From positions 248,001-312,000 of the forward strand of contig JAIYAE010000014.1 in the NCBI GenBank assembly GCA_027489175.1: DNA of 64,000 bases, given 5' to 3'. Of this stretch, positions 45,343 through 56,486 are shown in pieces (position 1 is the first letter of the stretch; each line of letters opens with the position of its first letter). Source of the stretch: Rhodobacter sp. (GTDB lineage Bacteria > Pseudomonadota > Alphaproteobacteria > Rhodobacterales > Rhodobacteraceae). The notes beneath the pieces are model-generated. The model saw only the letters and a list, made by a program, of their open reading frames with translations, had not been told where the DNA came from and made no database searches. Position numbers and translations under genes: made by a program.

Positions 45343-46215
45343 ATGCGCTCTTCGAAGAAACGCTCGCGTTCCAGCCAGAACCGCCCGCGCACCCTCGGCA
45401 ACATCATCAACCGCGTCTTTGACTCTTCGGGTCCCGAAGGCAAGGTGCGGGGCACGCCCCAGCAGATCATCGAGAAGTATCAGCAGCTTGCCCGTGACGC
45501 GCAGCTGTCGAACGACCGGGTCGCCGCGGAAAATTTCCTGCAGCATGCCGAGCATTATACCCGCATGCTGGCCGAAGCCACGCGGGAGATGGCCGCCGAA
45601 CAAGAGGCGCGGCAAGGCCAGTTCCAAGGTCAGGGCGGGCAGGGTTCCGGCCAGCAAGGCGGCAACCAGAACGCTGGCCAGAATGGGGGCCAGAACGGGG
45701 GCCAGAACGGCAACCAGAACGGTGGCTACCAGGGCAACGCGAATGGCGGCCAGAATGGGGGCCCGACCGGCGGTTATGGGCAACGCCCCGACCGTCAGGG
45801 CGACCGGCCGGATCGCAATGATCGCGCTGGTGAGCGGGGCGTCGATCGTAACGGTGACCGCAACAGTGACCGTTCGGGCGACCGCAATCCCGATCGTGGC
45901 ATGGACCGCCCCTCGGACCGCCGGCCCGAGCACGTCCGCGACGAGCGCGACTATGCGACCATGGATCAGCCATCAGCGCCCGATGTGATCGAGCTTGATG
46001 CCGGGGATGAGACCGGACTGGTCGAAACCCCGGAATCGGTGATCAAGCCCGAGCGCAAGCCCGCCCCACGCCCCCGCGCCCCCGCAGTCGAGGCGGGTCC
46101 GGAGCCTGAGGCCAGCCCCCGCGAAGATCGCGGACCCCGCCGTGCCCGCGGCCCGCGCAAACCGAAGGCCGAAGGCGGACCCGAGGGCGCGCCGCCCAAG
46201 GAAGCCGCCGAGTAG
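45343..46215 (+). CDS. DUF4167-family protein with long low-complexity tail
   Basis: A 290-residue protein. The N-terminal DUF4167 domain (about residues 1-90) reads SQNRPRTLGNIINRVFDSSG, then GTPQQIIEKYQQLARDAQLS and ENFLQHAEHYTRML. After it come tandem NGGQ-type repeats (residues about 95-145), a DRNGDRNSDRSGDR-type charged repeat (about 150-185), and a proline/arginine/glutamate tail. The lysine/arginine-rich ends suggest RNA or nucleic-acid binding, but the role is unknown. The ATG at 45343 follows AAAGGACA. Two terminators come after it. Confidence 0.88.
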   Translation: MRSSKKRSRSSQNRPRTLGNIINRVFDSSGPEGKVRGTPQQIIEKYQQLARDAQLSNDRVAAENFLQHAEHYTRMLAEATREMAAEQEARQGQFQGQGGQGSGQQGGNQNAGQNGGQNGGQNGNQNGGYQGNANGGQNGGPTGGYGQRPDRQGDRPDRNDRAGERGVDRNGDRNSDRSGDRNPDRGMDRPSDRRPEHVRDERDYATMDQPSAPDVIELDAGDETGLVETPESVIKPERKPAPRPRAPAVEAGPEPEASPREDRGPRRARGPRKPKAEGGPEGAPPKEAAE

Positions 46216-46288: not shown

Positions 46289-46327
46289 AAAGGGCCTGAC
46301 GCGGTGGCGTCAGGCCCTTTTGTTTTT
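46289..46327. terminator. Second strong hairpin terminator before attL
   Basis: A perfect 14-base stem (AAAGGGCCTGACGC and its complement) with a GGTG loop is followed by TGTTTTT. Its T-run touches the start of the att repeat. Before insertion of the element this would have lain just past the tRNA-Asn 3' end, and read on the minus strand (A-rich flank AAAAAGACAAA) it may have served the tRNA gene. Confidence 0.85.
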
Positions 46328-46373
46328 GGCTCCGGCGGTAGGGATCGAACCTACGACCAATTGATTAACAGTC
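46326..46373. repeat. attL: 48-bp direct repeat of the tRNA-Asn 3' end
   Basis: These 48 bases match 56411-56458 exactly and correspond to the 3' part of tRNA-Asn (minus strand) from the anticodon arm to the CCA end plus one base. Beyond it the sequence no longer continues as a tRNA. The remaining bases to 46540 hold no gene, only integrase arm-type repeats and the integrase ribosome binding site. Confidence 0.93.
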
Positions 46374-46478
46374 GGGTTTCCGGGGCAATCAGCATCTCAC
46401 TATGTAAAACTATCGGCAGGCAAAATAGCGCTTGTAATCAGCCCATAAGCGCGAAATGTTAGGGTAAGTGAGTAACAC

Positions 46479-46525
46479 GGGGGAACAGTGCCAATCGGCT
46501 ATTCTGTTCCCCCGTTTGTTCCCCC
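46479..46525. promoter_or_regulatory. Integrase arm-type sites, left end
   Basis: The octamer GTTCCCCC occurs at 46506-46513 and 46518-46525, and inverted (GGGGGAAC) at 46479-46486. The same octamer occurs as a pair near the other end of the element (56346-56364). Repeats placed like this at both ends are typical of the arm sites to which a tyrosine integrase binds. Confidence 0.6.
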
Positions 46526-46540
46526 AAGGAGGGTTGCCCT

Positions 46541-47779
46541 TTGAAACTGACAGCCCCGACGGTCGAGAAGATAGGCGGCGGCGATCGCCGGATGGAGATC
46601 CCCGACGACCTTTGCACCGGGCTTTACCTGGTGGTGCAGACCACGGGTCGGAAGGGATGGCAGGTCCGCTATCGGCACGGCGGGGTGCATCGCCGCATGA
46701 CCCTTGGGGCCTTCCCGACCCTCTCACTTGCAGCGGCGCGAGTGCGGGCGCGGGAGGTGATGGCCGCCGCAAGTGAGGGCCGCGACCCTGCGGAAGAGGT
46801 GAAGGCGGCGAAAGCACCGAAGGCCGTGGATGACCGCGACCTGATAAAATCGCTGATCAAGGATTTCCACAAGCGGCACCTTTCGACCCTCAAGACCGGG
46901 GACGCGGTCAAGCGCGAGCTCGATCGGCACGTGGTCGCGGCTTGGGGTGACCGGGACGTTGCCTCAATCACTCGGCGCGATGTGATCGAGCTGCTGGACA
47001 GAATCGCAGATACCGGGCGGGTGGTAAGCGCAAATCGGGTGCGGGCCTATCTGGGCAAGTTCTTCGCCTGGTGCATACAGCGGGACATTCTGCCCCTCTC
47101 GCCCATCGCAGGCGTCAAGCCAGTTGCGCGTGAGACCAGCCGCGACCGCGTCCTGTCAGATGCCGAGGTGCGGTGGCTGTGGCTGGCGTGTGAGGCCGAG
47201 GGCTTCCCGTGGGGGCCGATGGGCCGGATCCTGCTGTTGACCGGGCAGCGACTTTCGGAGGTCGCGCGGATGACAGATGGCGAGATCGAGGGCGACCTGT
47301 GGCGCCTGCCTGCAGCCAGGACGAAGAACGGCCGCGCGCATGCGGTTCCGCTATCCGATGCCGCCCGCGCCGTCCTTGGGGCCGTTCCCCGGATCAAGAG
47401 CGCGGCGGGCTACGTTTTCACCACATCAGGCGATACGCCGGTTTCAGGGTTTCACAAGGCGAGGGAGCACCTTGCGCGGCGGATGGCCGAGATCGCCGCC
47501 AAGGAACGCGGCGAGCCGGTGTCGATCGACCATTGGACCTTTCACGATCTAAGGCGGACGGCCGCGACGGGGATGGCGCGGATGGGGATTCCGGTGCGGG
47601 TGACAGAGGCGGTCCTGAACCACGTCAGCGGCACCGGCGGCGGGATCGTGGCCGTCTACCAGCGGCACGATTTCGCAGATGAGAAGCGCACCGCTCTGGA
47701 CGCCTGGGCGCGCATGGTGCTGCAGCTGGTCAAGGGGGGTGGCGGCAACGTGGTGCATTTGGCCGAGGTGCGGGGATGA
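46541..47779 (+). CDS. Tyrosine-type site-specific integrase
   Basis: A 412-residue integrase. An N-terminal DUF4102-type arm-binding domain (LTAPTVEKIGGGDRRMEIPD, with LGAFPTLSLAAARVRAREV) is followed by a SAM-like core-binding domain and the catalytic domain. Catalytic residues are Arg237 (LLTGQRLSEVAR), His335 and Arg338 (FHDLRRTAATGM), His361 (LNHVSG) and the nucleophile Tyr373 (AVYQRHD). The start is TTG at 46541, supported by AAGGAGGG seven bases upstream. It sits beside attL and would insert the element in tRNA-Asn. The next gene overlaps its stop. Confidence 0.95.
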   Translation: MKLTAPTVEKIGGGDRRMEIPDDLCTGLYLVVQTTGRKGWQVRYRHGGVHRRMTLGAFPTLSLAAARVRAREVMAAASEGRDPAEEVKAAKAPKAVDDRDLIKSLIKDFHKRHLSTLKTGDAVKRELDRHVVAAWGDRDVASITRRDVIELLDRIADTGRVVSANRVRAYLGKFFAWCIQRDILPLSPIAGVKPVARETSRDRVLSDAEVRWLWLACEAEGFPWGPMGRILLLTGQRLSEVARMTDGEIEGDLWRLPAARTKNGRAHAVPLSDAARAVLGAVPRIKSAAGYVFTTSGDTPVSGFHKAREHLARRMAEIAAKERGEPVSIDHWTFHDLRRTAATGMARMGIPVRVTEAVLNHVSGTGGGIVAVYQRHDFADEKRTALDAWARMVLQLVKGGGGNVVHLAEVRG

Positions 47780-48357
47780 GCGAAGCCTGGGACGAAGCCC
47801 TCTACAGCAAGGCCGACCAGAAAAAGCTCGCTGCTGTTTGCGCAGTGCTCGCTGATCGCTTCCCTGGTGTCAGCGGCGCTGTCTTGGGGGTTCAGGGCCG
47901 CCAGTTGCTGTTCACGGCAGAGACCGCTAGCGACATGGTTACCCGCCGGGCAGATGACGAGAAAGCGCTGCGGAAGCTGGCGCGTGTCCTGAACGATGCA
48001 GACGCGGTCATTCAAGGGTTGTCGAGGTTTAGTCGAGAGGCTTTCCTGCACCGAGCCTACATGGAGGGGATGCAGTGTTCCTTCGATCATGTAGCCGCCA
48101 TCGCGACTTCCGTCGCTGACAGAGTTCCGGAGACGCCTTTTCACAGCCGTGAGAACGTCAGGGCAATATTTCTAGTCGAGGATGCCCGGCGGGTCTGGTC
48201 GACAAACACCGCCAAGGAGGCGCCGCCGGGTGGACTGAACCCGGAGTCGCCCTTTGCGGCATTCCTAACCGATCTATTTGCGGCGTTGTCTGTCGGGTCT
48301 GAGCCGAGGTCCGCTTTCCAAGCTTGGCAAAAGTACAGAGATAGCGGGCTTTTCTAG
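47776..48357 (+). CDS. Hypothetical protein coupled to integrase
   Basis: A 193-residue protein of unknown function, soluble in appearance. It starts MSEAWDEALYSKADQKKLAAV, with a short LLFTAETASDMVTRRADDEK strand-helix and a helical REAFLHRAYMEGMQCSFDHV core. Its ATG overlaps the integrase stop (ATGA) and a GAGGTGCGGGG precedes it, so it is co-translated. Such genes often accompany integrases in alphaproteobacterial islands and may adjust excision, but this is inference. Confidence 0.75.
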   Translation: MSEAWDEALYSKADQKKLAAVCAVLADRFPGVSGAVLGVQGRQLLFTAETASDMVTRRADDEKALRKLARVLNDADAVIQGLSRFSREAFLHRAYMEGMQCSFDHVAAIATSVADRVPETPFHSRENVRAIFLVEDARRVWSTNTAKEAPPGGLNPESPFAAFLTDLFAALSVGSEPRSAFQAWQKYRDSGLF

Positions 48358-48431
48358 GCACATTCCTGTGCACGACGCCTAGGGCCGATCGGGGCAAACC
48401 TGTTGCTACAGAAAAGCAAAGGGTTACCTCA

Positions 48432-48641
48432 ATGGCAAACACTGGCGAAGACAGGTTGATCGGTTCCAATGAGGTCCGGTCCCGCCTTGGCGGAATTTCC
48501 GACATGACCTTGTGGCGCTGGCTGGCTTCGGCTGAGGTTGGCTTCCCCCGTCCGATCTACGTCCGCCGCCGCCGCTTTTGGCGAGAGTCCGATCTTGCGG
48601 CCTGGATGGCCGCGCAGGCTCCGGTTGCGCGGGTGGCGTGA
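48432..48641 (+). CDS. AlpA-family helix-turn-helix regulator (excisionase-like)
   Basis: A 69-residue DNA-binding protein of the AlpA/MerR-like type. The helix-turn-helix reads NEVRSRLGGISDMTLWRWLA, followed by FPRPIYVRRRRFWRESDLAAWM, the usual wing and final helix. AlpA-type proteins in P4-like elements activate excision or control the replication genes. Its stop overlaps the start of the primase-helicase gene (TGATG), tying it to replication. Confidence 0.88.
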   Translation: MANTGEDRLIGSNEVRSRLGGISDMTLWRWLASAEVGFPRPIYVRRRRFWRESDLAAWMAAQAPVARVA

Positions 48642-50053
48642 TGGGGGTCTCTGACGTCGCGGCGATTATGGCGAGTCCGCAGGACATCGATTTGCCGCCT
48701 GGCCTTGGGCTGCCGGCAGCCGCGCCACCGCCCGAGTTCCCTGACTTTGAGCCGACCGAACTGGCGCTTGCCGACACGGCAAAGGCGTGGGTCGAGGCTC
48801 TTGGCGGGTTTGTGATTCACGATGGCGACGCCTTCCTGTGGTTCGATGGCGACCGTTTCTGCAGAGAAGCTGGCAACGCAAAGGTGCAGGAGCTTTTCAA
48901 GGCCATGGTGCGGCAGGCAAGCAGCACCTGGAAGCCAGCCGATCACGCGAGAATGGGCCGTAGGGCGTCGATCGGCGGGGCGATGTCGCTTGCCGCGTCT
49001 TCCCTCTTTGTCGATCGGTCGACCCTCGATTCAGCCGACTTCCTGCTGCCTTGTCCGGGCGGAGTGACGGTCGACCTTGAAACCGGGAAGGTGCGCCGTT
49101 CAAGCCCAGCAGACCGTATGACGAAGCGCGCGGGGGTAGCGCCGGACGCGTCGGTGCGGATCCCGCAGTGGATCGCGTTCCTTGACCAGGTTTCTGGGGG
49201 TGACGAGGACTTCCCGCGCTTCGTCCAGGTCTGGTTCGGCTACATGCTGACAGGAAGCGTCTCGGCGCAGAAGCTTTTCTACATCGTCGGGCGCGGCGGC
49301 ACAGGCAAATCCACCCTTGTCGAAATCATTCGCTACGTGGTGGGTGATTTTGCCGCGATGACCGAGGCGGCAACCTTCGCTGAACAGCGCCACGAGCCGC
49401 ACCCGGCGGCACTGGCTGCGTTGGATGGGGCCCGCGCCGTCTTCGCCCCGGAGTTCGAGGGGCGCCGCATTGATGCGTCCAAGGCGAAGGCCTTCACCGG
49501 TGACGGGGCGATGTCCGTTCGGGGTATGCGGGAAAACTTCCGACAGGTGCGCGTGACCGGGAAGCTCGTCATGGTCGGCAATTCAGAACCGCAGCTGCGC
49601 ACTGTGGATGAGGCGATACGCCGGCGCTTTGTACTGATCCCGTTCAACTCGCCACCTTCAAAGGTCGACCCTGATCTGCCTGCGAAGCTGAAGGCTGAAG
49701 CGCCTGGCATCCTTGCGTGGGCCATCCGAGGTGCGCAGGAGTGGATCGAGGAAGGGCTCTACATCCCGCCTTCGGTCGCAAAGGCTAGTGCCGAGTATCT
49801 GGACGACCAGGATAGCTTTGGTTCCTGGGTCGAGGAACACCTCGACTGTACCGACCGCCTTGCATTCACCACATCTGCCGAGCTCTTCAATCATTGGAAG
49901 CTCTACGCCGACGGCGCGAACGAGGCTGCGGGGACCGCTAAGGCCTTCGGATCGCGGCTGCGCAAGATGGGGCTGCAGAGCGGGTGGACGCGCGTCTTGG
50001 GTAAGAGCGCGAAAGGCTGGTCAGGCTGCAAGCTGCGGGGTGTGGCGCCATGA
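48641..50053 (+). CDS. Phage/plasmid primase-helicase, P4/D5 type (SF3 helicase domain)
   Basis: A 470-residue replication protein. Residues about 60-190 form a D5_N-like domain (ALGGFVIHDGDAFLWFDGDR). The SF3 helicase core has Walker A VGRGGTGKSTLVEI near 235 and a region LDGARAVFAPEFEGRRID with the acidic residues, then LVMVGNSEPQLRTVDEAIRRRF. It lacks an obvious Toprim or archaeal primase domain at the N-terminus, so it may act mainly as a helicase or initiator. An iteron array follows within ten bases, and the ATG overlaps the AlpA stop. Confidence 0.9.
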   Translation: MGVSDVAAIMASPQDIDLPPGLGLPAAAPPPEFPDFEPTELALADTAKAWVEALGGFVIHDGDAFLWFDGDRFCREAGNAKVQELFKAMVRQASSTWKPADHARMGRRASIGGAMSLAASSLFVDRSTLDSADFLLPCPGGVTVDLETGKVRRSSPADRMTKRAGVAPDASVRIPQWIAFLDQVSGGDEDFPRFVQVWFGYMLTGSVSAQKLFYIVGRGGTGKSTLVEIIRYVVGDFAAMTEAATFAEQRHEPHPAALAALDGARAVFAPEFEGRRIDASKAKAFTGDGAMSVRGMRENFRQVRVTGKLVMVGNSEPQLRTVDEAIRRRFVLIPFNSPPSKVDPDLPAKLKAEAPGILAWAIRGAQEWIEEGLYIPPSVAKASAEYLDDQDSFGSWVEEHLDCTDRLAFTTSAELFNHWKLYADGANEAAGTAKAFGSRLRKMGLQSGWTRVLGKSAKGWSGCKLRGVAP

Positions 50054-50062
50054 TCTTGTTGT

Positions 50063-50176
50063 CTGCCACCGGTGCCACCGATGCCAACGATTTTACCAAG
50101 CTTAACCTCTTCCGCGCATGCGCGCGTGATGCGTCCAACAGTGCGGAACCGTTGGCATCGGTGGCACCGGTGGCAG
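50063..50176. promoter_or_regulatory. Mirrored iteron array, candidate replication origin
   Basis: Two perfect 27-base arms (50063-50089 and 50150-50176) face each other across a 60-base spacer. Each arm consists of three 9-bp units of the type TGCCACCGG, TGCCACCGA, TGCCAACG(A/G), at 50064-50090 forward and 50149-50175 reversed. The spacer has an AT-richer part (ATTTTACCAAGCTTAA) and a GCGCATGCGCGCG palindrome. Position directly after the primase-helicase gene favours an origin; a large hairpin RNA or terminator is the alternative. Confidence 0.6.
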
Positions 50177-50192
50177 GTCAGGTAGGTGCGCT

Positions 50193-50630
50193 ATGAGCGC
50201 TGCCTTCAATCGCGACGCCCGGCGCCGCATGGCGGCAGAGGCCAAGGCCCTTGCCCCGCGTCTTGCTGGCACAGCATTGGACTATGACGAGCGCGGGCGC
50301 CTAGTGCCTGTATCTGATGCGCGGGCGCAGGCCGTCTTGTGCCGCGCCTTTGAGCGGATGCTTAGAGCGGGCGGTGAGCCCCAGCTGCTGCAGTTGACTG
50401 AGGATGCTGCGTCAGCGTTCCCGCGCGGCGGCGGCGCGCCGGATGCCAAGGCGTCGGCCTGGCTAGCGGTGGGGCTCGATCGGGCCGGGATGGCAACCTA
50501 TGCCCTTCGGTGGCTGGACGTATCAGGCTGCAATCCCTTTGAGCGACGGGCCGTCGCCGAGATGGCGCTGTTCGCAGAGCTGGCGGTCGAGTGTGGGCAG
50601 GCAGGCTTCCCGGTGGCTGGTCGTGCGTGA
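50193..50630 (+). CDS. Hypothetical protein in element replication region
   Basis: A 145-residue soluble protein I do not recognise. It is alpha-helical, arginine/alanine-rich, with RDARRRMAAEAKALAPRLAG at the N-terminus and RAFERMLRAGGEPQLLQLTE in the middle. It follows the mirrored iteron array on the same strand and is on the element side of it, so it may help replication or regulation. A weak AGGTGCG site precedes the ATG. Confidence 0.65.
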   Translation: MSAAFNRDARRRMAAEAKALAPRLAGTALDYDERGRLVPVSDARAQAVLCRAFERMLRAGGEPQLLQLTEDAASAFPRGGGAPDAKASAWLAVGLDRAGMATYALRWLDVSGCNPFERRAVAEMALFAELAVECGQAGFPVAGRA

Positions 50631-50735
50631 GGGCAGGGGGGTGGGTCAAAGTCCAGGGGCCCGGGGTCTGCGGACCGGTCTGGGGAGTCATTCAGGGATT
50701 TTTTTTACCATCAGGTCAAATTTTTCGGTGATTGC

Positions 50736-50990
50736 ATGCAATTGACCATGTTCGGACCCACTCCCCAAACAACAAAGAATGTAGGCGGGCGCCCACGATG
50801 GGATAAAGCTAAGTATTATCAGGCACTTGTGGAGGAAAGGATCAGAGAAGGAAGGGTTCCAGGCGAGATTGCTGCAGAAGTCGGGATATCGGTCCCAACC
50901 TTGCGTCATTATTTTTCGGGTTTGCCTGCCTGGCAGAATAGGTGGGGCTACAAGTCGCGGTCGAAGAGCAGGAAAACACAAGATGCTTGA
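50736..50990 (+). CDS. Small helix-turn-helix protein
   Basis: An 84-residue basic protein. GGRPRWDKAKYYQALVEER is followed by a helix-turn-helix, GEIAAEVGISVPTLRHYFSG, then a lysine/arginine-rich end. It resembles the DNA-binding part of resolvases or of small terminase subunits, but is too short to be either in full. The ATG at 50736 has no clear binding site; one at 50748 is an alternative. It may be a regulator of the capsid genes that follow, or a truncated terminase small subunit. Confidence 0.65.
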   Translation: MQLTMFGPTPQTTKNVGGRPRWDKAKYYQALVEERIREGRVPGEIAAEVGISVPTLRHYFSGLPAWQNRWGYKSRSKSRKTQDA

Positions 50991-51137
50991 TCGGCAGCAA
51001 ATCTCCGGGTACGGTTGTGTGATGTTGTGCACCGCTTCGGCGGGCATCGCACCGACCGTCACCGCTTCGTGCGGGGCTTCGGAGAAACAGACCGGCTTTC
51101 ACGCCGATCCTTTCCCTTTGCAAATGACGGTACCCTC

Positions 51138-52526
51138 ATGACTGACAATCAGCACACCATCGTGAAATCGCGCGCCGACGTGCGCGCAATCCTTCAGCGC
51201 GCTGGCCTTGCCCGCGCTGCGGCCGACCTCATAGCGAAGGGCGGTTTTGCCGCCTTGGCCGAAAATCCCCACATCGAAAACGAAGAGGACCTTGAAATGT
51301 CTATCCAAGCCTTGCGCGAAAAGCGCGCAGAGAAAGCCACAGCCCTGAAGGCATTGGTCGCCAAGTCCAACTACAGCGTCGCCAGAGATCAGCCCGAGTA
51401 TGACCGGCTGATGAACGAGATCGACGGCTTGGACGTGGATATCCACCGGTACCATGCGGCCAACGAAAAGATCGCCAACGATGCTATGGGCGTCCCGATG
51501 GCGCGAAGCGGCGCCTTTCACTCTGCTGACGATCGAGAGTATCTCGACGCCTTTACGAATGTGCTACGAGCGCCGAAAGACTTGCGGGCCCGCGCCGCAC
51601 TTGCAGACCTTAATCCGCGCAACGCAGCGAGCGGTGGCACAGACGCGGCCGGTGGTTTCCTGGTCCCTGAGATCCTGCTTGGGCCACTGATGGCGCGAGC
51701 GGTCAACGCCAACCCGTTTCGCGAGCTGGTCCGCGTCGTTCAGGTCGGGACCCGGGATGTTTCCTTCCCGCTGTCCAACTCGAACAGCACGACCGGCTGG
51801 GTCGGGGAGGCGGCACCACGGCCGGCGACGGCCGAGGCCACCCTCTCAAGCGCAAAGCCGACCTTCGGAACGCTCTACAGCTATGTGGAGGCGACCGAGG
51901 AGCTGGTGATGGACAGCGCCTTCGACATTGGCCAATGGTTCGCTATGGAGGCCGGAAATGCGATGGGCGAAGCCGAGATGGCCTCAATCATCAGCGGTTC
52001 TGGCGTCGATCGTCCGTCTGGCCTACTGCTGACCGCGCCGACCACTGGCGCGGACGGTACGCGTGCAGCGACCGTTCTGAAGTATCTCCCGACCGGTACC
52101 GCCGCGACTCTCGGCGCAGCACCTTCGGACCTTCTTATCAGCACGCTCTACGACCTGAAAGCCGGTTACCGGGTGAACGCCAGCTGGGTCATGAACTCGG
52201 CAGTTGCGGGTGAGATCCGCAAACTGAAGGACAGCCAGGGCCGGTTCCTCTGGACCGATGGAATTGCCCAAGGTGAGCCTTCGACCCTGCTTGGATACCC
52301 AGTGCGGATTGCCGAGGCGATGGCCGGCGTAGGCGCGAACAACTTGCCGATCCTGTTCGGTGATTTCAGCCGGGCCTACGTCGCTTGTGACCTCGGGCCG
52401 CTTCGGGTGACCGTCGATGACAACGTGACCGTTCCGGGCCGCGTGAAGTGGTACATCCGTCGCCGGATGGGCGGCATCGTGTACGACAACAACGCCGTCC
52501 GGGCGATCAAGTGCGCCGTGAGCTGA
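51138..52526 (+). CDS. HK97-type major capsid protein, apparently fused to a prohead-protease tail
   Basis: A 462-residue frame. Residues 54-462 are a normal-sized HK97 capsid protein: a delta/scaffold helix (MSIQALREKRAEKATALKAL), then GGTDAAGGFLVPEILLG, a GWVGEAAPRPATAEATLSS segment and TPA-like P-domain strands. Residues 1-53 (with RADVRAILQRAGLARAAADL, then IAKGGFAALAE) look like the C-terminal tail of a prohead protease/scaffold protein. An internal ATG at 51297 has AGAGGA upstream and gives the usual capsid length, so either start could be used. No terminase, portal or intact protease precedes it. Confidence 0.88.
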   Translation: MTDNQHTIVKSRADVRAILQRAGLARAAADLIAKGGFAALAENPHIENEEDLEMSIQALREKRAEKATALKALVAKSNYSVARDQPEYDRLMNEIDGLDVDIHRYHAANEKIANDAMGVPMARSGAFHSADDREYLDAFTNVLRAPKDLRARAALADLNPRNAASGGTDAAGGFLVPEILLGPLMARAVNANPFRELVRVVQVGTRDVSFPLSNSNSTTGWVGEAAPRPATAEATLSSAKPTFGTLYSYVEATEELVMDSAFDIGQWFAMEAGNAMGEAEMASIISGSGVDRPSGLLLTAPTTGADGTRAATVLKYLPTGTAATLGAAPSDLLISTLYDLKAGYRVNASWVMNSAVAGEIRKLKDSQGRFLWTDGIAQGEPSTLLGYPVRIAEAMAGVGANNLPILFGDFSRAYVACDLGPLRVTVDDNVTVPGRVKWYIRRRMGGIVYDNNAVRAIKCAVS

Positions 52527-52572
52527 TAGCACTAGGCGCGGCGGGATCATCCGCCGCGCTGAGGCGCAAGAG

Positions 52573-52710
52573 ATGGGCAGGATGCGCCCGGTCGACCTGA
52601 GCCATGCATCCCCGTTCGTCGGTGAGTGGGCAAACCCCGACAAGACGCGGACCTACACCCTTTCGGAGGTCGCGGCGTCAGAAAAACAATGTGGGGCGGT
52701 TCAACTGTAG
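52573..52710 (+). CDS. Possible 45-residue small gene or gene remnant
   Basis: A short frame MGRMRPVDLSHASPFVGEWA, continuing NPDKTRTYTLSEVAASEKQ, lies between the capsid and tape-measure genes. The coding look is fair and a weak GCAAGAG precedes it, but no family is recognised. In complete phages this place holds head-tail connectors and tail proteins, so it may be what remains after a deletion. The rest of the 244-bp gap shows nothing further. Confidence 0.3.
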   Translation: MGRMRPVDLSHASPFVGEWANPDKTRTYTLSEVAASEKQCGAVQL

Positions 52711-52770
52711 TACCTGCATCGTCCTCGACACGCGTGATCGTACTTTTTAGAGAAATGGGATGTTTCGCAA

Positions 52771-54633
52771 ATGACAGAGCTCAGCGCCCTTAACGTTAAG
52801 ATCACCGGCGATGCTGACGGGTTGAATGCCGCGCTGAATACCGCGCAAAGGGGCGTGCAGACCTTCCAGAAGTCTGCGGAATCGTCGGCCAAGGTGTTTG
52901 AGCGTGCGTTCGCGCAAAGCGAAAAGTCTGTCGACCAGCTGCGCCGCGCCATCGACCCGGTCTATGCAAGTTCCAAGCGGTACGAGTCTGCGGTCGACAC
53001 ACTGGACGCGGCGCTGAAGCAAGGCACGATCACTCAGGCCGCCCATGCGCGGATGCTGGATCAGGCCAGCGCGACCTATCTGAGGGCGCAGAACGCGGCG
53101 GGGGCGATGGGGCAGCGCCTTGGCTTCCTCGGCAGCATGACAGACCAGGCCCGGGGCAAGATCCAGCAGGTCGGCTTCCAGGTGCAGGACTTCGCGGTTC
53201 AGGTCGGCGCGGGCACGTCGGCCACGCAAGCCTTCGCGCAACAGTTTCCGCAGCTGGCTGGTGCGTTCGGGCCTCTGGGCGTCGCCCTTGGCACGGTCGC
53301 GGCAATCCTTGTTCCGATCGCTGGCTACTTCCTGACTGCGGCCGCCAATTCCGACACCTTGACCGCGGCGGCGCAACGCCAGAAGACAGCGATTGAGGGG
53401 CTGACACAGGCAGCTGAAGCCCTTCGCCTTGAGCGCGAAATGGTTTCATCCGGCGCAAGCACCGTCGACGAGCAGCGCGGGCTTGAGGAACTGAACAGGC
53501 TGACGAAGGAGCGGGCGCTTCTGCAGCAGCAGGTGAATTCGTTCCAGAAGGCCGGGCGCCAAGCGCAGGCCGAGGAAGCAAAAGCGAAACTGTATCTGCT
53601 TGACCTGGATATCAAGATTGTGGAGGCCAAGCTGCGCACGCTGGCCTCCGAAGAGCAGATGGCCCCGGCAGTCGAGCGGAACAAGCAGGCGGCTGAAAAC
53701 TTCAAGGCAGTGCAAGACGCTATCGCTGCGGCCGACATAAGCGGCCCTTGGAACGCAGCCATTGGCGCGATCCAGAGGGCAATCAACAAGCAGAACGAAT
53801 ACCGGGCAGCGATGGCTGCAGCCATGGGCGCGAACGGTGGGGCGGGCCCGGGCCGAGGCGCTTCCCCGGGTGGGCCGCTGGTCGGATCGCCAGACCTTGC
53901 CGCCCTGCAGGCCGGTGGCGGCGTGATGCGGCCCATGCCTCCGGTTTCCGCCGCCGCCGGTGGTGGCGGGGGCGGCGGCGGTGGTGGCGGCGCAAGCGAG
54001 ATCGACAGCCTGCGTGCGTCGCTGATGACCAAAGAAGAGGTCGAGCTGGAATCCTACACCCGCCGGCAAGAGGCGCTGAAGATGGCCCTCGAACAGCGGA
54101 TGCTGACCGAGGACGAGTTCCGCAAAATGTCGGAAGACGCGCAGCGCCAGCACGCCGAAAAGATGACTCAGATCGACGTGTGGCGCTACGGCACGGCGCT
54201 GGACAAGGCGGGCGCTTTCTTCGGCGGCATGGCCGACGCGATGCAGGGCGGAAACGAGCGCATGGCTGCGATCGGGAAGAAGTTCGGCGCGGTAGAGGCT
54301 CTGATCAACGCCTGGCGGGCCTACAACCAGACGCTGGCCGATCCGTCCCTGCCGTTCTTCGCCAAGTTCGCCGCCGGGGCCAAGGTACTGGCCGCGGGCA
54401 TGGGCGCAGTGAACGCGATCAAGGGCGGCGGTGGCGGTGGGGGCCGATCCGGTGGTGCGGTCGCGGCCAACTCAACAGCCGCGCCGCAGCAGCAGGTTCA
54501 AACATTCAACTTCAACATCCAGAACGATCCGTTTGGGATTGGCCCCCGACTGGCGCGATCGATGGCAGAACAACTAAATGAAGCCAGCCGCAACGGGGTT
54601 AGCCTTCGCGCAACCGTCAACAACGCTGCATGA
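52771..54633 (+). CDS. Phage tail tape-measure-like protein
   Basis: A 620-residue protein. The N-terminus (ALNVKITGDADGLNAALNTA) matches the usual start of tape-measure proteins, followed by long coiled-coil helices and a hydrophobic segment around residues 167-195 (FPQLAGAFGPLGVALGTVAA). Glycine-rich linkers occur near 405 and 560. The C-terminus has FNFNIQNDPFGIGPRLARSM. It is short compared with many tape-measure proteins. No tail tube, chaperone or baseplate genes flank it, so it may be a leftover or have another role in the element. Confidence 0.85.
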   Translation: MTELSALNVKITGDADGLNAALNTAQRGVQTFQKSAESSAKVFERAFAQSEKSVDQLRRAIDPVYASSKRYESAVDTLDAALKQGTITQAAHARMLDQASATYLRAQNAAGAMGQRLGFLGSMTDQARGKIQQVGFQVQDFAVQVGAGTSATQAFAQQFPQLAGAFGPLGVALGTVAAILVPIAGYFLTAAANSDTLTAAAQRQKTAIEGLTQAAEALRLEREMVSSGASTVDEQRGLEELNRLTKERALLQQQVNSFQKAGRQAQAEEAKAKLYLLDLDIKIVEAKLRTLASEEQMAPAVERNKQAAENFKAVQDAIAAADISGPWNAAIGAIQRAINKQNEYRAAMAAAMGANGGAGPGRGASPGGPLVGSPDLAALQAGGGVMRPMPPVSAAAGGGGGGGGGGGASEIDSLRASLMTKEEVELESYTRRQEALKMALEQRMLTEDEFRKMSEDAQRQHAEKMTQIDVWRYGTALDKAGAFFGGMADAMQGGNERMAAIGKKFGAVEALINAWRAYNQTLADPSLPFFAKFAAGAKVLAAGMGAVNAIKGGGGGGGRSGGAVAANSTAAPQQQVQTFNFNIQNDPFGIGPRLARSMAEQLNEASRNGVSLRATVNNAA

Positions 54634-54696
54634 AGCCTCTACCAGGCGTCGCGAAATGGTGTGATCGTTCGGAAAGCATGGTTTCTTGAGGGGCAA

Positions 54697-54939
54697 ATGA
54701 CCGATTTCACCGAACGTCAAAGCATGATCGTCGCCCAGCACTGGGAAACTGCCCTAAAGGCATGCGTTGCAGATGGGGTGCCCGTGGATTTCGCATTGAG
54801 GACGCTGGCGGAATGCAGCTACGGCGGACTTAAGGGCGTGGCGGGCAGCGAAGCGAGCAAGAAGGAAATCCTTCGCATTCGCGACGACATTTGGGCGGAA
54901 CTTACGCTTCTTGCTGACAGGTGCGGGCCAGCGCAATGA
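54697..54939 (+). CDS. Small hypothetical protein
   Basis: An 80-residue acidic helical protein (MTDFTERQSMIVAQHWETAL, then DFALRTLAECSYGGLKGVAG). The ATG at 54697 follows GAGGGGCAA, a good binding site, in preference to an earlier in-frame ATT/ATG-type start at 54661. No family is recognised. It follows the tape-measure gene by 63 bases. Confidence 0.6.
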   Translation: MTDFTERQSMIVAQHWETALKACVADGVPVDFALRTLAECSYGGLKGVAGSEASKKEILRIRDDIWAELTLLADRCGPAQ

Positions 54940-54985
54940 GGCACAGTTAGGGTTGATTCCAGCGCCTGCGCCCTACCTAAGCGGC

Positions 54986-55171
54986 ATGCGCACATGGCCC
55001 CATACCGTTCCCCCAGACCTTCGCCGTCGCCTTGATGAAGCACTATCCTTTCGCAATCATGGCGCACCTGAGGTCTGGGGCGCGGTGCGCGACTGGCTGG
55101 AAGCGCATGACGTGCCGGTGCCGGACGGGATGGCCGTTGCCGCGCCGATCGAGGGGGCGCAGCGCGATTAG
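54986..55171 (+). CDS. Small hypothetical protein
   Basis: A 61-residue protein (MRTWPHTVPPDLRRRLDEAL, then SFRNHGAPEVWGAVRDWLEA). The composition is reasonable for a gene but the binding site is weak and the frame is open further upstream to 54911. It ends overlapping the stop of the convergent HEPN-type gene by four bases. Of moderate reliability. Confidence 0.45.
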   Translation: MRTWPHTVPPDLRRRLDEALSFRNHGAPEVWGAVRDWLEAHDVPVPDGMAVAAPIEGAQRD

Positions 55172-55695
55172 TAGCCTGTACGAGACCTGGTGCGTCGGTT
55201 GCGCAGTACGGCTTTCAATGTGTCGCGGATGTATACTGTTTCACGGAGCAAGTGGTCCACATCCTCGACCGCCAAATCTATCTGTCTCATCGAAAATGTC
55301 TGGTCTACGAACTGCCACACAGGCCCCGACTGACTTGGCCTCTGAAAATAGTGTTCAACCTCCAGTTTCCCCTTCGGAGTGAGATACCATGCGCCGTGAG
55401 CAGCAGTGTTTCGATTTTCACGCCCCACGTCGACTCTCTCCACGACGGCAGAAAGGCGAATAGCCAAGGGCGGCGGAATTTTTCCGATTGCTGACCGAAC
55501 GGCGTCGATAAGCTTAACGGTCACCTTCTTTATCTTTAAGTAGTGCCTGCGATCAAAATCGTCGTCCGGATCTTGGCCATCTGCTATCTGGACAATTTCC
55601 CAAAGCGCGAGTTCCACATGGGCGCAACTCTGGATGTAAATCCCCTGTTTAAGCAGGAACTCAGCGGGGAGCATGTCTTCAACTAGTCGCTTCAT
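55168..55695 (-). CDS. HEPN-type putative ribonuclease (toxin candidate)
   Basis: A 175-residue mostly helical protein. It carries RNTAAH at residues 95-100, the R-x4-H signature (with Asn after Arg) of HEPN ribonucleases, placed at the start of a helix as in that superfamily. The first part (FLLKQGIYIQSCAHVELALWE) is a likely packing helix. Its ATG overlaps the stop of the upstream Xre-like gene in ATGA form, so the two are co-translated. The layout fits a toxin-antitoxin or abortive-infection pair. GC content looks lower than in the core genes. Confidence 0.72.
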   Translation of the reverse strand: MKRLVEDMLPAEFLLKQGIYIQSCAHVELALWEIVQIADGQDPDDDFDRRHYLKIKKVTVKLIDAVRSAIGKIPPPLAIRLSAVVERVDVGRENRNTAAHGAWYLTPKGKLEVEHYFQRPSQSGPVWQFVDQTFSMRQIDLAVEDVDHLLRETVYIRDTLKAVLRNRRTRSRTGY

Positions 55696-55979
55696 CCGAT
55701 ATCTTCAGTGTACGGTGCAGAGTCTACGCTAATAGGATCCTTCCTTAGCGCCACGCCAGGCCCGTTCCCGTTCTCTGGCAGGAAGATGACGCCTGCAGAC
55801 TCAAGGGTTGAGCGAAGTAGGGCCTGTGTGGCAGCCGACGGTGCAGACTGCCCAGAGCCTTCCGCACGTTTCACTGTCATTGAACTCACACCTGCGTGCT
55901 GCGCCAGCATCGCTTGTGACCAGTTGATCAGGGCGCGACCGGCCCTGATTTGCGCAGATGTAGATTTCTCTTGTTCCAA
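55692..55979 (-). CDS. Xre-like helix-turn-helix regulator (antitoxin candidate)
   Basis: A 95-residue DNA-binding protein with a short Cro/C1-type helix-turn-helix (SAQIRAGRALINWSQAMLAQ, then HAGVSSMTVKRAEG) and a C-terminal VIFLPENGNGPGVAL strand. This arrangement is typical of small phage and antitoxin repressors. I start at a TTG at 55979 (MEQEKSTS); the frame is open further upstream to 56132, but those residues look non-coding and cover the operators. It is followed by the HEPN gene and likely represses its own operon through the GTTC-N7-GAAC sites. Confidence 0.75.
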   Translation of the reverse strand: MEQEKSTSAQIRAGRALINWSQAMLAQHAGVSSMTVKRAEGSGQSAPSAATQALLRSTLESAGVIFLPENGNGPGVALRKDPISVDSAPYTEDIG

Positions 55980-56011
55980 AATAGAACACGCCCTATGTTC
56001 CCTTATGGAAC
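55973..56011. promoter_or_regulatory. Paired GTTC-N7-GAAC operators between divergent genes
   Basis: Two palindromes, 55973-55987 and 55997-56011, both fit GTTC-N7-GAAC, and their centres are 24 bp apart. They overlap the start of the Xre-like gene and lie 38 bases upstream of the small plus-strand gene. This is where an autorepressor would sit. The pattern differs from the direct GTTC-N7-GTTC LexA box of alphaproteobacteria, so SOS control is not implied. Confidence 0.65.
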
Positions 56012-56048
56012 AGTATTCGTGTTCGCAACTCCAAACAAGAGGAAAGCC

Positions 56049-56288
56049 ATGACCCAGTGTATCGAACCTGAGCCGATCTATTCCAATGGTCGCAAGTTGG
56101 GGCCGGAAGACAAGGCAATGCAGCTGCGGCAACTTGCGCTGATCGGCCTGGCAGCCAGCGACAGCAACATGAACCTTTTACACATTGACGACGCTTTCCC
56201 GGCGCTTTTCGAGGTCATGCACCGGCTGGCTAGCGAAGTAGAGGAAGAGATCACCGAGATGCAGAGGATTGCCAAGCTGGTGGCCTAA
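56049..56288 (+). CDS. Small hypothetical protein next to attR
   Basis: A 79-residue acidic protein (MTQCIEPEPIYSNGRKLGPE, then MQLRQLALIGLAASDSNMNL) ending in a glutamate-rich helix. AGAGGAAAG precedes the ATG at 56049. It is divergent from the regulator/HEPN pair and shares their operators, so it is probably under the same control. No family recognised. A terminator follows. Confidence 0.65.
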   Translation: MTQCIEPEPIYSNGRKLGPEDKAMQLRQLALIGLAASDSNMNLLHIDDAFPALFEVMHRLASEVEEEITEMQRIAKLVA

Positions 56289-56345
56289 GGGATTGCAGTG
56301 CAGACGGGGAATTTTCCTCCAGGCGCAGGGCTTACATGCCGGGCC

Positions 56346-56364
56346 GTTCCCCCGGTGTTCCCCC
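56346..56364. promoter_or_regulatory. Integrase arm-type sites, right end
   Basis: GTTCCCCC occurs at 56346-56353 and 56357-56364, 11 bp apart start to start, matching the pair near the left end (12 bp apart). They lie about 50 bases inside attR. Confidence 0.6.
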
Positions 56365-56373
56365 GAAAATAAT

Positions 56374-56409
56374 AGGGCCTCAGCTATTACTAGCTAAGGC
56401 CCTGTTTTT
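56374..56409 (+). terminator. Rho-independent terminator before attR
   Basis: AGGGCCT pairs with AGGCCCT, with an inner AGCT/AGCT stem, and GTTTTT follows. It would end transcription from the small gene at 56049. On the minus strand it lies just past the tRNA-Asn 3' end. Confidence 0.85.
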
Positions 56410-56410
56410 A

Positions 56411-56458
56411 TTGGCTCCGGCGGTAGGGATCGAACCTACGACCAATTGATTAACAGTC
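56411..56458. repeat. attR: 48-bp direct repeat inside tRNA-Asn
   Basis: Identical to 46326-46373. Here the repeat is part of a complete tRNA-Asn gene, so the element carries the sequence that restores the tRNA after insertion. Confidence 0.93.
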
Positions 56459-56486
56459 AACTGCTCTACCGCTGAGCTACGCCGGA
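56412..56486 (-). tRNA. tRNA-Asn (anticodon GTT)
   Basis: On the minus strand the acceptor stem TCCGGCG pairs with CGCCGGA, followed by G and encoded CCA. The anticodon loop CTGTTAA gives GTT at 56452-56454, the D-arm is GCTCAGCGGTAGAGC and the T-loop is TTCGATC. Intact. It is the insertion site of the element at its left. Confidence 0.97.

Follow-up and report, generated by a model that had tools for sequence, protein, structure and literature searches.

A capsid-bearing 10-kb island at a tRNA-Asn gene of Rhodobacter sp. is probably an integrated phage satellite of a recurring, reduced design

The window analysed here, 64,000 nucleotides of Rhodobacter sp. (GenBank assembly GCA_027489175.1, contig JAIYAE010000014.1, positions 248,001 to 312,000), contains a 10,133-bp element at positions 46326-56458 that, judging from its genes, is probably an integrated, capsid-bearing phage satellite, one that would build its own small shell and depend on a helper phage for terminase, portal and tail. 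An earlier note on this DNA had left the choice open between a satellite and a deleted prophage. We favor the satellite because the same design recurs in 15 other elements, within a narrow range of sizes, and none of the 16 carries a large terminase of the PF03354 or PF03237 families.

The ends of the element are the perfect 48-bp direct repeats that the earlier note had described, exact over 48 bp and 95% identical over 62 bp, and the repeat overlaps the 3' part of a tRNA-Asn(GTT) gene (56412-56486, reverse strand). GC content is about that of the surroundings, apart from a drop near 55-56 kb. Family searches also bear out the integrase, AlpA-like, HK97 capsid and tape-measure genes that had been proposed. 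The proposed absences stand as well: Pfam and PHROGs scans of the element's scanned proteins gave no match to families of terminases, portals, connectors, tubes or lysis proteins, and a six-frame search of the host genome placed no PF03354 or PF03237 terminase within the element. Profile scans of its proteins likewise gave no HNH match. Integrated, bounded by attachment (att) sites and without a complete set of virion genes, the element has the sequence attributes of phage satellites in general. Its principal features are the following (handles beginning with L denote related loci, introduced below; aa, amino acids; ORF, open reading frame).

46326-46373, no strand: attL, a 48-bp copy of the tRNA-Asn 3' part, with a core identical in L054, L362 and L366
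46541-47779, forward: tyrosine integrase, 412 aa, TTG start (Pfam and PHROGs)
48432-48641, forward: AlpA-like excisionase/regulator, 69 aa (phrog_66 and phrog_4745; Pfam HTH_17 below cut-off)
48641-50053, forward: P4-family helicase, 470 aa (D5_N, DUF5906; TIGR01613 above cut-off)
50063-50176, no strand: inverted arrays of 9-bp iterons, likely the replication origin, immediately downstream of the helicase gene
51138-51296, forward: N-terminal extension of the capsid ORF, resembling the C-terminal tail of a prohead protease
51297-52526, forward: HK97-fold major capsid protein proper, from an internal ATG with GAGGA 7 nt upstream
52771-54633, forward: tape-measure protein (TMP), 620 aa (phrog_9483, E 4e-19)
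56411-56458, no strand: attR, inside the tRNA-Asn gene

A capsid search over 295 genomes of the family returned many gene transfer agent (GTA) capsids together with a set of small islands. Contigs scanned with the single capsid sequence gave no match; scanned with a capsid alignment they gave 80 loci, of which 8 were annotated, 4 were duplicates and 3 more serve as rows of the capsid tree. A first list of 30 loci (L001, L003-L031), most of them unopened, supplied seven tree rows, with stretches fetched from six places and from genomes G077 and G010; a second list of 80 loci supplied 12 annotated loci and the tree row L130, and a further list of 80 supplied one new annotated locus, L288. Neighborhoods were annotated by gene calling and BLAST. 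Because further members may be among the unopened loci, the resulting family of 16 elements of the same plan is a lower bound. Beside the window element it comprises 13 elements with repeats at a tRNA gene, one circular metagenomic contig and one element with undefined ends, all listed here with their host or source and what they carry in addition to a capsid gene (MAG, metagenome-assembled genome).

L053, Marimonas lutisalis: small terminase
L054 and L055, Rhodobacterales bacterium HKCCE3408: S78-type protease (Pfam and PHROGs)
L056, MAG HLUCCO18: TMP; its 14-bp tRNA repeat is the weakest of the family
L060, genome G077: TMP
L148, Roseovarius amoyensis: TMP and small terminase
L149, Defluviimonas sediminis: TMP and protease (BLAST)
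L150, Thermohalobaculum xanthum: partial small terminase; no tRNA gene, a 14-bp repeat (4772, 15210) outside its genes
L151, Pseudomarimonas arenosa (a gammaproteobacterium): small terminase
L154, Aestuariivirga MAG: protease (BLAST)
L220, Tropicimonas isoalkanivorans: TMP, protease (BLAST) and a neck-type protein
L362, genome G296 of the window's genus: protease (BLAST) and portal (PHROGs)
L365, genome G391: small terminase
L366, genome G390: protease and portal (both BLAST), the same design as L362
L069, IMG/VR contig of 8,908 bp: protease (BLAST); probably circular, because of its 141-bp terminal repeat

Fourteen of the 16 elements, the window element included, have a direct repeat of 14-57 bp at a tRNA gene, and the units so bounded measure 8,494-10,547 bp (mean 9,800, s.d. 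571). The window element shares its tRNA-Asn att core with three others and has an integrase 61% identical to that of L362, 60% to that of L148, 58% to that of L366 and 57% to that of L054; its AlpA-like protein is 49-55% identical to those of L148, L053, L054 and L150, and its helicase is 43% and 41% identical to those of L056 and L154. A capsid gene is present in all 16, an S78-type protease in 8, a TMP in 6, a small terminase in 5 (counting the partial one of L150) and a portal in 2. The six-frame search for large terminases was run on the 15 genomes or records in which the elements lie, with two families, PF03354 and PF03237 (other terminase families not searched), and it placed a match in none of the 16 elements. 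Scans of 74 other proteins of the first 13 elements, and of 14 proteins of L362, L365 and L366, gave no match to head, packaging, tail or lysis families at E <= 0.001; several replication genes known from BLAST, their position or their likeness (L053, L054, L055, L060, L362, L366) and a few ORFs shorter than 75 aa lay outside these profile scans and are covered by the six-frame terminase search.

This recurrence bears directly on the possibility that the window element is a decaying prophage reduced by deletion, with capsid and TMP as leftovers of a head-tail operon. Such a history would account for the two remaining structural genes and their phage-like order, capsid then TMP, for the protease-like tail ahead of the capsid gene, for a TMP 42% identical to that of a complete cyanophage and for a helicase that has no primase domain. 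It does not sit well with similar reduced gene sets, their integrase and capsid genes open, recurring at nearly one size in several genera, with a capsid clade in which no complete phage has been identified, or with a congener whose same att site carries another satellite-like island. On account of the recurrence, the narrow size range and the capsid clade we rejected it as our main explanation and consider it very unlikely.

The earlier note had also cited a capsid fusion as evidence for deletion, evidence that looks weak. TIGR01554 matches the capsid with E 1.9e-86 over model positions 2-385 of 385, and the match begins at residue 57 of the ORF; what precedes it in frame is a protease-like tail (residues 9-41 resemble protease C-tails), and the complete capsid ORF behind this tail has its own ATG. 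The upstream ATG has no clear ribosome site, in contrast to the Shine-Dalgarno-like GAGGA before the ATG at 51297. In a set of 12, the extension is most like a stand-alone 80-aa ORF in L056 (58% over 33 aa, E 1e-9), and because the same tail exists there as a separate ORF, the apparent fusion is weak evidence for a random deletion.

The capsid is full-length, with conserved columns and an HK97 fold. A structure model of the 462-aa ORF (pLDDT, predicted local distance difference test, 80) has a long helical N-terminal domain, and its closest solved structures are the capsid of the Rhodobacter capsulatus GTA (RcGTA; E 2e-25, with 34-39% identity over the aligned parts of its chains) and then that of EcCI2 (9gyi; E 2e-20), a capsid-forming phage-inducible chromosomal island (cf-PICI). 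Sequence searching finds the same two as nearest solved relatives. In a capsid tree of 43 rows the window capsid belongs to a clade of 14 rows (support 100/97), of which 11 are members of the family of 16 and three are contig fragments; none has been identified as a complete phage. Outside this clade fall the cf-PICI-like capsids, the portal-type pair L362 and L366, and L060, L220 and L151; the L060 capsid is sister to the GTA capsids (99/98) and that of L220 sits on a long branch. A grouping of 11 named satellite capsids was rejected (approximately unbiased test, p-AU 6e-18); the set tested lacked L067 and L068, two fragments that lie among these capsids, and contained L151, which falls outside them. 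When 390 genomes of the order were searched with the capsid, at least 25 had a match at 1e-95, and at least six of those hold a capsid scoring above 530 bits (7 elements), the next match reaching 377 bits; four candidates were scored per genome, so that these counts are lower bounds.

Five fragments without ends (L067, L288, L068, L152, L070) were left out of the element count. L067 is a contig fragment with capsid, TMP and minor-tail genes, and L068, L152 and L070 have protease and capsid. The metagenomic L070 (2144-7207) also has a tail-fiber-type gene (phrog_5616) and is perhaps a satellite with its own tail-tip protein. L288 (809-5520) encodes a capsid 53% identical to that of the window, two different small-terminase genes, a short ORF read as HNH-like and a 723-aa protein that matches no PHROG and may be a tape measure.

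If the window element were a remnant, related strains might carry a full-length prophage between the same flanks, and this was the refuting case that the earlier note had named. The right-flank gene is present in 29 of the 32 genomes of the genus, host included. Both sides of the site were readable only in three congeners (G296, G298, G314), none of which has such a prophage; in the short stretches covering the other loci the left-flank gene did not appear. The site is empty in G298 and G314, where 135 and 184 bp separate the left-flank gene from the tRNA-Asn gene; in G296 it holds a different island of 9.8 kb, L362 (3388-13200; contig G296:C50), with integrase, AlpA, primase, capsid, protease and portal genes and with no terminase found by profile scans or by the six-frame PF03354/PF03237 search. 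Just left of the window element, short 12-bp direct repeats occur at 45648-45779 within a gene.

The replication genes of the window element were partly as the earlier note had proposed. The likely origin beside the helicase gene stands: its inverted repeat (30 nt, 97%, 50063-50092 and 50147-50176) scores 27, against a best score of 10 in 200 single-base shuffles. The same test, with 200 shuffles each, was run on nine elements, and no shuffle reached the score of the repeats beside the replication gene in L053, L054, L055, L060 and L154 (shorter in L154); the 9-bp spacing of the repeats is common to the window element, L053, L055 and L060. The label of primase-helicase, however, holds only for its helicase half. 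Although the protein passes the cut-off of TIGR01613 ('phage/plasmid primase, P4 family'), it matches the C-terminal half alone of the long primase families, no primase domain is seen, and the label is therefore too strong. A short family, NF011296, has the same length as the protein, with a match below cut-off.

The TMP gene begins 244 bp after the capsid gene. Over 95% of its length its product has 42% identity to the TMP of Microcystis phage Mae-JY02, and it has 40% identity to that of Pan4; the capsids of these phages are only about 28% identical to the window capsid, and in both phages the capsid and TMP genes stand apart, with several genes between them that are annotated in part as adaptors and tail proteins. 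Within the family the TMP genes (window, L056, L060, L148, L149, L220) are all open and encode 581-1021 aa. In five of the six the gene comes right after that of the capsid, and in L148 after capsid and small terminase. Their best PHROGs are 9483 twice, 10574 twice, 2854 and 339, and the accompanying capsids belong to three lineages (the window clade, L060 and L220). Because the TMPs match different PHROGs and the capsids are of three lineages, the pairing of the two genes looks repeated. A 673-aa gene of L151 had been a further TMP candidate from its size and was rejected because it matches Old, AriA and GajA models; this Old/AriA/GajA-type ATPase gene (L151:10970-12991) adjoins the capsid gene of the Pseudomarimonas element.

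A satellite TMP may be built into tails, may interfere with the helper or may be a passenger. With TMPs of different families paired to capsids of at least three separate lineages, we put forward, as a tentative idea that could well be wrong, that this satellite family swaps both size-setting proteins, the capsid for the head and the TMP for the length of the tail, and borrows all else, motor and portal included. The satellite might instead use its capsid while its TMP is a passenger or relic, which would fit the absence of TMPs from 10 of the 16 elements and the several different PHROGs that they best match. That is unlikely, though less so than the other alternatives weighed here, given six open TMP genes beside capsid genes of three lineages and given the TMP of the cf-PICI-like record vB_KppS-Ant.

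As an integrated satellite, the window element would respond to helper growth in the cell by excision through AlpA and the integrase, and its helicase would amplify its DNA from the iteron origin. Its own capsid protein would then assemble on a helper portal into a small shell, which judging from the genome length would be about T=3; the helper's terminase would fill the shell with element DNA and the helper's tail would join, with the satellite TMP perhaps taking the place of the helper's and setting the tail length. Parts are interchangeable among members, which have the capsid alone or the capsid plus small terminase, protease, TMP or portal. A different use of the same genes can be imagined, in which capsid and TMP poison the assembly of helper heads and tails and build no particle. 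Satellites that block tail assembly of other phages have been described (PMC11364771), and the window element has no partners with which to build a particle alone. Nevertheless, a full-length capsid with conserved columns and the HK97 fold, the presence of protease, portal and small terminase genes along with it in other members, which fits packaging better, and the precedent of capsid-forming satellites make pure interference distinctly unlikely.

Among known satellites the cf-PICIs are the most obvious comparison. They share with the window element an integrase, an excisionase/regulator, a primase-type replication protein, an HK97 capsid of their own and a small size. However, cf-PICIs as described in PMC10690885 encode capsid, protease, portal, connectors, both terminase subunits and HNH, and their average size is given as 14 kb (PMC10803314), whereas the window element is 10.1 kb, has no large terminase, portal or connectors, and has its capsid in another clade. 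The comparators were vB_KppS-Ant (LR881103) and Pmp8 (OR544139), classed as cf-PICIs from gene content, and the structure of EcCI2. Because portal, connectors and large terminase are lacking, we do not file the window element as a cf-PICI in spite of its own capsid, although it may work in part like one. The 16.5-kb record of vB_KppS-Ant has its TMP at L258:2036-4333 (phrog_2854, 2e-176), adjoining terminase genes; it also has portal and connector genes.

With the classical PICIs and Staphylococcus aureus pathogenicity islands the element has in common a size of about 10 kb, an integrase, a replication gene with iterons beside it, as in the staphylococcal islands, and, in five members, a small terminase. 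It differs in having its own capsid gene, whereas a classical PICI takes the capsid of its helper, either as it is or remodeled (PMC10690885). Integrase, AlpA (HTH_17) and a DUF5906-type replication gene are part of the definition of phage-inducible chromosomal minimalist islands in PMC10803314, and all three are found here; those islands, however, are linked to fis and leave capsids unremodeled, whereas the window element lies at tRNA-Asn with a capsid gene. P4-like satellites resemble it in the P4-family primase C-terminal domain, AlpA and a size of about 10 kb, and differ in that P4 itself has no capsid gene (PMC7762592), whereas the window element carries one. Virion-encapsidated integrative mobile elements (VEIMEs) and tycheposons have been proposed as marine satellite families (PMC11389934), and the window family may overlap with these; PMC12324425, as far as its available text goes, concerns elements other than these capsid islands. 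A literature search by titles and abstract openings found no description of such islands, but the main cf-PICI, VEIME, tycheposon and survey papers were outside its reach and a published description of reduced capsid islands may exist. The marker genes of P4 are sid, psu and delta.

GTAs are head-tail gene clusters that are not known to have an integrase or att. Those of RcGTA type share with the window element the capsid fold, and differ from it in that the element is an att-bounded island. The host has an RcGTA-type cluster of its own (G000:C34, L058) with capsid, portal and terminase, and a GTA remnant was rejected as an explanation of the window element, since this cluster lies elsewhere and its capsid is in another clade. 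In the host genome, a draft that is 94% complete, the sole PF03237 terminase and the sole PF04860 portal both lie in the GTA cluster, and the six-frame search found PF03354 nowhere; the helper is therefore probably an infecting phage. One could argue from the same matches, and from the kinship of the window capsid to that of RcGTA, that the resident GTA is itself the helper. Yet the pieces of DNA that GTA particles pack are short, about 4 kb, against 10 kb for the element; furthermore, the family has members in Pseudomarimonas arenosa and an Aestuariivirga MAG, two hosts in which GTAs were not looked for. We regard a GTA helper as extremely unlikely. Across the 15 satellite-bearing genomes or records, PF03237 matches elsewhere in 14 (all but L069), at least some of them in GTA clusters, and PF03354 exceeds its cut-off in one, Tropicimonas. 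This PF03354 terminase (G616:C15:684834-685361) is on another contig than L220 and may mark a helper prophage.

Several observations weigh against an integrated satellite that makes its own shell. TMPs are missing from 10 of the 16 elements, and the TMP is therefore not essential to the design. The window helicase has no primase domain, and the inverted repeat is at chance level in L148 (65 of 200 shuffles) and L150 (196 of 200) and weak in L056 (1 of 200). No clear small terminase is present in the window element, the likeness of orf84 (below) to small terminases being at the level of a helix-turn-helix (HTH) only. In the fragment L067, a row of the capsid clade, minor-tail genes follow the TMP gene, and the fragment could belong to a phage. 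The searches with PF03354, PF03237 and PF04860 showed no resident helper in the host draft genome, and no excision, particle or helper has been observed.

The remaining genes of the window element are small.

47776-48357, forward: orf193, overlapping the integrase stop; no match in family scans
50193-50630, forward: orf145, with a distant homologue at the same position in L056
50736-50990, forward: orf84, an 84-aa HTH protein with, tentatively, a small-terminase-type DNA-binding domain (weak HTH matches in Pfam and PHROGs)
54697-54939, forward: 80-aa ORF after the TMP gene; no match in family scans
55168-55695, reverse: orf175, with an RNTAAH motif, possible cargo beside the XRE gene
55692-56132, reverse: XRE-type regulator with homologues in L056, L060 and L150
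56049-56288, forward: 79-aa ORF from the ORF call; no PADLOC family

ORFs of about 140-226 aa that likewise overlap the integrase stop, or abut it, occur in L053, L055, L056, L148, L150 and vB_KppS-Ant. The predicted fold of orf145 has no structural match at E <= 0.001. Over 44 aa orf84 is 41% identical to the N-terminal part of the ORF that precedes the large terminase gene in prophage L057; an ORF of L149 is likewise 41% identical to it, over 66 aa. The RNTAAH motif of orf175 is presumably HEPN-like, PADLOC models give no match to the protein, and defense cargo is a possible role.

Capsid islands without a packaging motor would bridge the satellites that shrink the capsids of their helpers and those that make whole heads of their own, and they raise the question of whether a foreign capsid protein can assemble on a helper portal and be filled by a helper terminase. 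If both size-setting proteins are indeed swapped, such satellites would be intermediate between remodelers of helper heads and builders of an entire head. The pairing of capsid and TMP hints that phage parasites may target the length or content of tails as well. Finally, the scarcity of T=3 capsids among tailed phages has been called puzzling, and genomes of T=3 particles are predicted to average 11.8 kb, with limits of 8.1-17.1 kb (both in PMC7762592); this family provides natural 10-kb genomes with HK97-fold capsid genes inside that predicted range.

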